Shown one piece after another: positions 20,089 through 22,084 of a stretch of DNA of 35,111 nt. The DNA comes from Candidatus Zambryskibacteria bacterium RIFCSPLOWO2_01_FULL_39_39. GTDB lineage: Bacteria; Patescibacteriota; Minisyncoccia; Phycocordibacterales; WO2-35-19. Numbering within the stretch: position 1 is the first letter of the stretch; each line of letters begins with the position of its first letter. The notes beneath the pieces are model-generated. The model was given only the letters and a program-made list of their open reading frames with translations, did not search any database and was not told the origin of the DNA. The DNA lies in the NCBI GenBank assembly GCA_001823925.1, contig MHWB01000005.1:1-35111 (forward strand). The letters run 5' to 3'. A program made the position numbers and the translations under genes.

Positions 20089-20204
20089 ATTTTTTAGTTA
20101 AAATAATAAAATTATTACTTTAATTCTACTACCCTATTTTTAAAAATGCATCCACAGGGGTTTTTACAAATTTTTATGATAAAATTATTTAGGAGTAGTT
20201 TTTT

Positions 20205-20380
20205 ATAAACCAAAAGAGAAGTCCATCTTGGTGAGCTTGCAAATCACTTGTGGTGAGCGTAGTCGAACCATAACGCATTTCTCTTTTGGCTTAACTTAAT
20301 TCTTCTCTGCACGTGTGGGGAAGAATTAGTTGGGTCGCAAAGACCGTCTCGGTATCCATCGGGGCGGTTTTTGTGTTTTT
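20205..20380 (+). ncRNA. Candidate structured RNA with terminator
   Basis: No SD-led ORF is seen here, yet three stems follow one another: CCAAAAGAGAA (20210-20220) with TTCTCTTTTGG (20279-20289), TAATTCTTC (20297-20305) with GAAGAATTA (20320-20328), and a terminator (20343-20372). The first loop contains GGTGAGCGTAGTCGAACCA, which resembles a common intergenic repeat type, so part of the structure may be a repeat insertion. An extended -10-like sequence (TATGATAAAAT) lies upstream at 20175-20185, without a clear -35. The terminator stands before the separate promoter of the next gene, which supports an independent transcript. No known RNA family matched. Confidence 0.4.
20343..20380 (+). terminator. 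Intrinsic terminator
   Basis: ACCGTCTCG (20343-20351) pairs with CGGGGCGGT (20360-20368), including two G-T pairs. TTTTTGTGTTTTT follows. Confidence 0.75.
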
Positions 20381-20437: not shown

Positions 20438-20926
20438 ATGGGATTACTTTGGAACTTTGATAACCCGAATTTATTGAAAGCATTTTTCTCTGTGATTTTG
20501 TACGATCTCGCAAAATGTGCAAAAAAGAATGGTGAGCATAGCCTTTTCCAAATAGAAGAAGACGTGTCCTATCTTTCTGGTGTCTTGACTGCTGGATTTA
20601 ATGCTACAAGGATAGACTTTTGTAAGCCATCGTATCTGCACGTAGAGCCGATTTCGTTTATGACCAACAACTTTGACAGACTCGAGCCCATCTTGGCTAG
20701 AGATATTGCGGACAGTGTAGTTATTGGTCTTGCTCTCTACAATCGTTTACCTAATATGCTTAGTCGTTGTGATTTTGCTGTACGCACATCCTATCTTTAT
20801 AGGCATACGGCTGAAGTTTATCCAGATGATTCTCTACGTCCCGCTCTTCGTTCTATTTCAGAAAATTTTGGTGTGTGGGCTGACCTCCTCCCATCTCTCT
20901 CAAAGAGTGTCTCCCTTGTTATTTAA
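20438..20926 (+). CDS. Hypothetical protein (162 aa)
   Basis: No recognised family. A strong SD (GGAGGT, 20427-20432) precedes the ATG. The protein appears mainly helical with hydrophobic stretches (AFFSVILYDLAKCAK and ADSVVIGLALYNRL) that are too short or mixed to be confident membrane spans, so it is probably soluble or peripheral. Five cysteine, tyrosine or histidine-rich positions near the middle have no obvious metal-site spacing. It has its own promoter and terminator. A 14-bp direct repeat (TATTTAAGTATATT) spans the stop codon and its 3' flank. Confidence 0.75.
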   Translation: MGLLWNFDNPNLLKAFFSVILYDLAKCAKKNGEHSLFQIEEDVSYLSGVLTAGFNATRIDFCKPSYLHVEPISFMTNNFDRLEPILARDIADSVVIGLALYNRLPNMLSRCDFAVRTSYLYRHTAEVYPDDSLRPALRSISENFGVWADLLPSLSKSVSLVI

Positions 20927-21001: not shown

Positions 21002-21030
21002 TTGAAGTCAAATGAGGTTTATGATAGTCT
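21002..21030 (+). promoter_or_regulatory. Promoter of the candidate ncRNA
   Basis: TTGAAG (21002-21007), 17-nt spacer, TAGTCT (21025-21030) with TG at 21022-21023. The expected start is at about 21037, exactly the first base of the closing helix of the predicted RNA. Confidence 0.6.
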
Positions 21031-21036
21031 AGTCGT

Positions 21037-21300
21037 GGACTGGAGAACCCCGGAGAGTTGGAGGAAAAGGTGGCATCCTACTACTGGAGTACCATTGGCT
21101 CGGACTCGGCAATGCCAAATCGATTCGTCGTTAGTGTGGGAGCATAAACCTCTGGCACGAGGTAGAAAGCTTCACGTGCAGCATTGACGGCGATAGATAC
21201 CCTGTCGTCTTAGGGGCATAAGTTGAGTCAGGCGGGGCTGATTACTTCAACTCCTCCAGTCCGTCGATCCTTTCGGTACCACACCGAGAGGATTTTTTTT
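21037..21300 (+). ncRNA. Candidate structured noncoding RNA, about 260 nt
   Basis: The predicted transcript begins GGACTGGAG (21037-21045), which is perfectly complementary to CTCCAGTCC at 21254-21262, just before the terminator. This forms a closing helix around about 208 nt. Internal hairpins include ACCTC/GAGGT near 21150-21165, TTGGC/GCCAA around 21092-21115 and GTTGA..CAG/CTG..TCAAC near 21222-21252. The only ORFs are a TTG-led 61-codon frame that starts inside the promoter and a 25-codon GTG frame after GGAGG at 21060-21064. Neither has a recognisable product. It does not show the conserved blocks of RNase P RNA, tmRNA or SRP RNA. The isolated position argues against a riboswitch. This is inference from structure; family unknown. 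Confidence 0.6.
21269..21300 (+). terminator. Intrinsic terminator of the candidate ncRNA
   Basis: CCTTTCGGT (21269-21277) pairs with ACCGAGAGG (21283-21291) around a 5-nt loop. A and T(8) follow. Confidence 0.85.
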
Positions 21301-21358: not shown

Positions 21359-22084
21359 TTACTTCTTTTTTCGGCTACGCCATTCGATAATTTTAGCGTG
21401 GTGGCCACTTATGAGAACCTTTGGGACTCTGTATTTTTTGCTTTTGTAAGTAAGAATTTCCGGGCGTGTGTAGACCTCTCTAGATGAGACTCTATTTTCT
21501 TCTACCGACTCTATTTTACCCAAAACTCCCGGAATCCTACGGGCAATCGTATCTATTATTACCATTGCGGGTAGCTCGCCACCCGTAACGACGTATGGCC
21601 CGATTGATAAGTCTTCAACTTTTATTTTATATAAATCTTTTGTTATCTTTTTTACTCTTTCATCTATTCCCTCATATCTGCCACAAATTATCACTACATC
21701 TTTAATTTTTTTTGCAACTTTTTCTGCATAAATATTATCAAACTGTTTACCACTTGGAGAGAGCCAGATAATAAGAATATTTTTGAGAGTCCCTCTCCTT
21801 TGCAAGGAGAGGGATTTAGGGTGAGGTAGTGCCTTCTCTACCGCCTTTACCACCGACTCTGCTTCTAAGACCATCCCCGGCCCCCCACCAAAAGGTCTCT
21901 GGTCTACCCTTCTGTATTTACTTTGTCCCGCCGTAGCTTTATGCGAAGGAGGAGCTTTTGTAAAATCTCTTGGGTTATAAAATTTAACTCTTATTTTTTT
22001 ATCGAGAATAGCTCTTCCTATAATCGACGAGTTTATGTATGAGTCCAAGCTTTCCGGAAATAATGTAATGATATGAAAAGTCAT
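21359..22084 (-). CDS. trmD: tRNA (guanine-N1-)-methyltransferase
   Basis: SPOUT-class methyltransferase that adds m1G37 in tRNAs and so prevents frameshifting. Length 241 aa. Family blocks: ITLFPESLDSYINSSIIGRA at the N-terminus, RPFGGGPGMVLEAE (residues 63-76), the knotted SAM-binding segment IICGRYEGIDERV, and SIGPYVVTGGELPAMVIIDTIARRIPGVLG. Residues 87-102 (PHPKSLSLQRRGTLKN) interrupt the linker between helix and strand and are encoded by a palindromic repeat inserted in frame. It sits downstream of rpsP and khpA in the usual order, but rimM is absent and a terminator-like hairpin separates it from khpA. There is no SD. Confidence 0.95.
   Translation of the reverse strand: MTFHIITLFPESLDSYINSSIIGRAILDKKIRVKFYNPRDFTKAPPSHKATAGQSKYRRVDQRPFGGGPGMVLEAESVVKAVEKALPHPKSLSLQRRGTLKNILIIWLSPSGKQFDNIYAEKVAKKIKDVVIICGRYEGIDERVKKITKDLYKIKVEDLSIGPYVVTGGELPAMVIIDTIARRIPGVLGKIESVEENRVSSREVYTRPEILTYKSKKYRVPKVLISGHHAKIIEWRSRKKK
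21788..21826 (-). repeat. Palindromic repeat, in frame inside trmD
   Basis: TCCCTCTCCTT (21790-21800) pairs with AAGGAGAGGGA (21804-21814) around TGC, followed by a TTAGGGTGAGG tail. It has the same stem-plus-tail layout as the other C-rich repeats in the window. Confidence 0.8.

Follow-up and report, generated by a model that had tools for sequence, protein, structure and literature searches.

Several described bacterial RNAs resemble the candidate RNA of this study, hereafter RNA-B. Orphan intergenic sRNAs are likewise stand-alone units with a promoter, a structured body and a Rho-independent terminator, and 6S RNA (RF00013), at ~200 nt, is a similarly closed rod interrupted by internal loops. 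RNase P RNA (RF00010) and tmRNA (RF00023) share with RNA-B the character of long, closed and structured RNAs, and the RNA of type III toxin-antitoxin systems adjoins a small ORF, as RNA-B adjoins an orphan one. In the literature, our searches turned up nothing about structured RNAs in this bacterial group.

RNA-B lies in a window of 35,111 nt, the whole stretch of DNA analysed here, which corresponds to contig C5 in a genome of 800 kb. It is flanked on one side by an orphan ORF (20438-20926) and on the other by trmD (21359-22084), a convergent gene whose product matches Pfam PF01746. The initial annotation had proposed an undescribed ncRNA of ~260 nt at this site. A promoter motif, an island of elevated GC, closed ends, a terminator and the lack of an ORF or an Rfam match all speak for that proposal, whereas the lack of a homologue in the genomes searched speaks against it. 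On balance, we lean towards reading RNA-B as a lineage-specific, stand-alone ncRNA gene of ~260 nt that resides in an accessory insert.

Architecture and predicted promoter of RNA-B

The body of RNA-B (21037-21264, + strand), a predicted structured ncRNA of 228 nt, was delineated from its fold, shuffled controls, GC content and the lack of a coding signal, and it has a single copy in its own genome. Its two ends are joined by the closing helix P1, in which the 5' strand GGACTGGAG (21037-21045) is perfectly complementary to the 3' strand CTCCAGTCC (21254-21262), as initially noticed, with pair probabilities of 0.96-1.0. A second helix of 9 bp, P2, formed by GAGTTGGAG (21055-21063) and CTTCAACTC (21245-21253) with a pair probability of 0.74, stacks within P1; it abuts P1 directly on the 3' side and is separated from it on the 5' side by the nine-base bulge AACCCCGGA. 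The interior folds into several hairpins, also as annotated, including a long one (21125-21193) of 13 pairs and two inner helices, with pair probabilities mostly of 0.9-1.0, and a small one of four pairs (21201-21214; 0.90-0.96). A terminator scan located the expected intrinsic terminator after the closing helix (21266-21300), composed of a 12-bp stem (21266-21294) and a T run. All these elements are on the + strand. We propose that the transcript would fold as a single closed domain, with P1 and P2 locking its ends, and that transcription would end at this terminator.

RNA-B has a GC content of 53.5%, compared to 38.8% for the whole genome and 32% for the DNA just upstream. The codon score of the 61-aa frame at 21002-21187 is negative, and stops interrupt the remaining frames, in agreement with the earlier view that no ORF in this region is convincing.

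The extended -10 element TGnTAnnnT is a common promoter form upstream of tRNA genes throughout this genome. Among 44 upstream regions, which comprise those of tRNA genes and RNase P RNA and include RNA-B and its neighbour RNA-A themselves, 21 contain it, whereas in intergenic DNA the expectation is ~0.08 per 60 nt. Upstream of RNA-B, the TAGTCT at 21025 carries a TG extension and fits this form, giving the probable promoter element TGATAGTCT (21022-21030, + strand), the end of which is 6 nt from 21037. The initial annotation had instead invoked a -35/-10 pair with a start at about 21037. This pair is weak, with the -35-like hexamer TTGAAG (21002-21007, + strand) lying 17 nt before TAGTCT, and a strict sigma-70 scan found no promoter for RNA-B, whereas the extended -10 is like that of the tRNA promoters. 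Scored by a matrix built from tRNA and RNase P sites, TTTATGATAGTCTAGTC reaches 8.3, which is above the median of the tRNA upstream regions (6.6); a score as high as that of RNA-B is attained by 4.3% of 60-nt intergenic blocks. Judged from these motifs, a promoter for RNA-B is moderately supported, on the grounds of the extended -10 rather than of the -35/-10 pair, and transcription from it would most likely start near 21037.

Stability of the fold compared to chance

With RNA-B taken at its exact ends, comparison with shuffled sequences gave a fold z between -3.4 and -4.5, and the fold is strand-specific, with a z of ~-3.4 on the + strand versus -1.7 on the - strand. A 9-nt end complement arose in 17 of 20,000 shuffles (p ~1e-3), and the energy of the end duplex was matched in 2 of 3,000. 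The inner 160-nt windows of RNA-B are ordinary (z ~-0.3 to -0.9), and its excess stability is located in the long-range pairing of the ends.

The genome-wide background weighs against this. At three of the 139 terminators with room upstream, that of RNA-B being one of them, a complement of 9 nt or more lies at least 150 nt upstream; at the two others it is as long as that of RNA-B or longer, and one of these two probably overlies an uncalled protein gene, as read from its sequence. In addition, a fixed 230-nt window upstream of the RNA-B terminator has a z of -2.06 and ranks 40th among 126 terminator-upstream stretches. The earlier assertion that the closing helix is unlikely by chance is therefore upheld by the shuffles but tempered by the terminator counts and the modest z rank, and it holds only moderately.

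These figures bear on the main rival explanation, in which RNA-B has no function and is foreign or decaying DNA of higher GC content, with an end complement that arose by chance and a terminator that serves something else. Such DNA would account for the modest z rank and for the similar complements at other terminators. It sits less easily with the two consecutive 9-bp helices, the well-spaced promoter motif and the terminator that coincide with the ends of RNA-B, with an end-duplex energy so seldom matched in shuffles, and with a stability confined to one strand. We regard a non-functional RNA-B as possible but not probable.

The insertion downstream of trmD

In the window, a small ORF and trmD are 1,271 nt apart, compared to ~46 nt in the congener G001, ~116 nt in G005, ~320 nt in G003 and ~300 nt in G007; in the latter two, RNA-A occupies this space. 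The extra DNA downstream of trmD, which accommodates both the 162-aa orphan ORF and RNA-B, is an insertion that is absent from the relatives. In the congener G006, the same place (L006 2200-2740) is taken by another orphan ORF, ~112 aa long and separately terminated, which indicates that the genus varies at this site downstream of trmD. Since the insertion is lacking in relatives, the ncRNA gene that we favour would probably be accessory rather than housekeeping; the same absence also counts in favour of a stretch devoid of function.

Between trmD and the start of the small ORF, several congeners retain the element GCATCCACA, which is found at 20140-20160 of the window, L003 1480-1497, L004 1441-1456, L005 1260-1270 and L008 1258-1268. 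This element may belong to a promoter or a regulatory site.

The initial annotation had called for a search of related genomes with a covariance model, which was run over a sample of the order and the phylum and revealed no homologue at any level sampled, be it genus, order or wider phylum. Specifically, blastn found none of RNA-B in 60 relatives, and the whole insertion gave nothing matching RNA-B in 397 genomes of the order; a single-sequence covariance model, R1, found no homologue in these 397 genomes and 380 others of the phylum, bringing the combined scope to ~780 genomes. In two essentially complete congeners, neither cmsearch with R1, covering ~1.0 of 1.1 Mb, nor unfiltered nhmmer (--max) found RNA-B; nhmmer returned only weak matches at E 6-11, the top one within a protein gene, and RNase P RNA and tmRNA were recovered there. 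A distant blastn against phages and plasmids gave only a 26-nt AT-rich match, and an exact-pattern search of viral and genome collections yielded no homologue, its seven pattern matches on viral contigs having no R1 match.

As positive controls, the genome's own RNase P RNA and tmRNA, each used as a single sequence, found their congener counterparts at E 1e-13 to 1e-47. Because these controls were found and RNA-B was not, RNA-B lacks the conservation that a housekeeping RNA would show in this genus. The lack of a homologue also leaves no alignment in which to seek covariation. Among the sequences searched, RNA-B shows no conservation, which would be the chief sign of a functional RNA, and this result, too, lends weight to the possibility of non-functional DNA.

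Upstream of the orphan ORF lies RNA-A (20204-20376, + strand), a three-hairpin RNA ending in a terminator, with a z of -8.0 and a strong extended -10 scoring 12.9. It is conserved beside trmD in two congeners, and its coordinates elsewhere are L008 1326-1500 and L005 1327-1495. A blastn comparison with G007 revealed 79% identity across the promoter and hairpin 1. Among congeners, the position and shape of hairpins 2 and 3 are maintained while the sequence differs. A model of hairpin 1 has matches in three of the eight genus members and, beyond the genus, weak ones at E 0.04-0.08, and its pairs are so nearly invariant that they provide no covariation evidence. RNA-A has nothing above chance in Rfam. 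Of the two RNAs at this locus, RNA-A is the better-supported new one.

The orphan ORF (20438-20926, + strand) comes with a ribosome-binding site and a terminator of its own. It has no match in Pfam, NCBIfam, PHROGs or PADLOC and no homologue in the genomes, viruses or phages searched, and its AlphaFold model is uninformative (pLDDT 37). The ORF and RNA-B are the sole genes found in the extra DNA, lie on the same strand and both lack homologues, which would fit a functional pair resembling an RNA-protein toxin-antitoxin or a defence cassette. Such a pair is improbable: the two have separate terminators, RNA-B is downstream and contains no tandem repeat units, none of the toxin or defence families matches the ORF, and no complementarity above chance links it to RNA-B. 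A type III toxin-antitoxin system, characterised by tandem RNA repeats ahead of a ToxN-like toxin gene, was rejected as a candidate, as RNA-B has no repeats and follows an ORF that is without a Pfam or PADLOC match. A looser arrangement, in which an undescribed accessory RNA gene and the orphan protein make up a small cassette inserted at the variable trmD-downstream site of a streamlined genome and the structured RNA binds protein, is doubtful, though less so than a toxin-antitoxin or defence pair.

Relation to known RNA families

Searches of Rfam at the gathering and permissive (E 10) thresholds gave only chance sRNA and miRNA matches at RNA-B, in line with the initial suggestion of an undescribed ncRNA. 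The models of RNase P RNA, tmRNA and signal recognition particle (SRP) RNA likewise have no match at the locus at E 10, in keeping with the reported absence of their consensus blocks. The genuine RNase P RNA is at G000:C1:21445-21796 (121 bits), and the genuine tmRNA, for which neither cmscan nor ARAGORN gave a match at RNA-B, is at G000:C8:40359-40787.

None of the eight genus genomes matches the bacterial SRP RNA models or the 6S model. For SRP RNA (RF00169, RF01854), this may indicate that the RNA is very divergent or absent in the genus, to judge from these model searches. The vacancy would leave room for RNA-B as a very divergent SRP RNA, but RNA-B has no SRP match at E 10, is absent from the relatives and showed no GNRA-capped Ffh-binding motif, for which a scan of intergenic DNA also gave no convincing site; this identity is scarcely credible. 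A very divergent 6S-like RNA, which would trap RNA polymerase through a closed rod with internal bubbles, would suit the length and closed-end rod shape of RNA-B and the lack of a recognised 6S RNA elsewhere in the genus (none at E 1). It is nevertheless very unlikely, given that RNA-B has no 6S match at E 10 and no counterpart in relatives, where a housekeeping RNA should be as findable as RNase P RNA and tmRNA. Without a 6S or SRP match and absent from relatives, RNA-B is a poor candidate for either.

For the accessory ncRNA gene that we favour, the predicted fold points to a role. The complementarity of RNA-B to RNA-A, the ORF mRNA and the trmD mRNA is not above chance, which argues against a simple antisense action on any of them. 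As RNA-B is also mostly paired, with only short loops exposed, it would more likely be a compact RNA that binds protein or provides a scaffold, a mechanism that we infer together with the protein partner. If transcribed, RNA-B would illustrate how very small bacterial genomes can gain RNA genes of their own lineage, whether these arise there or are acquired; with no homologues to study, it opens no general question alone.

Compared to the described systems, RNA-B is distinct in several respects. RNase P RNA and tmRNA are encoded elsewhere in the genome, and their models do not match it. Unlike type III toxin-antitoxin RNA, it has no tandem repeats, is downstream rather than upstream of its ORF, and neighbours an ORF that matches no toxin family. 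Unlike 6S RNA, it has no Rfam match, is not conserved in the genus and possesses an asymmetric, branched interior. Compared to the orphan intergenic sRNAs, RNA-B lacks a family-defining homologue, is longer and almost fully paired, and is closed by a long-range helix.
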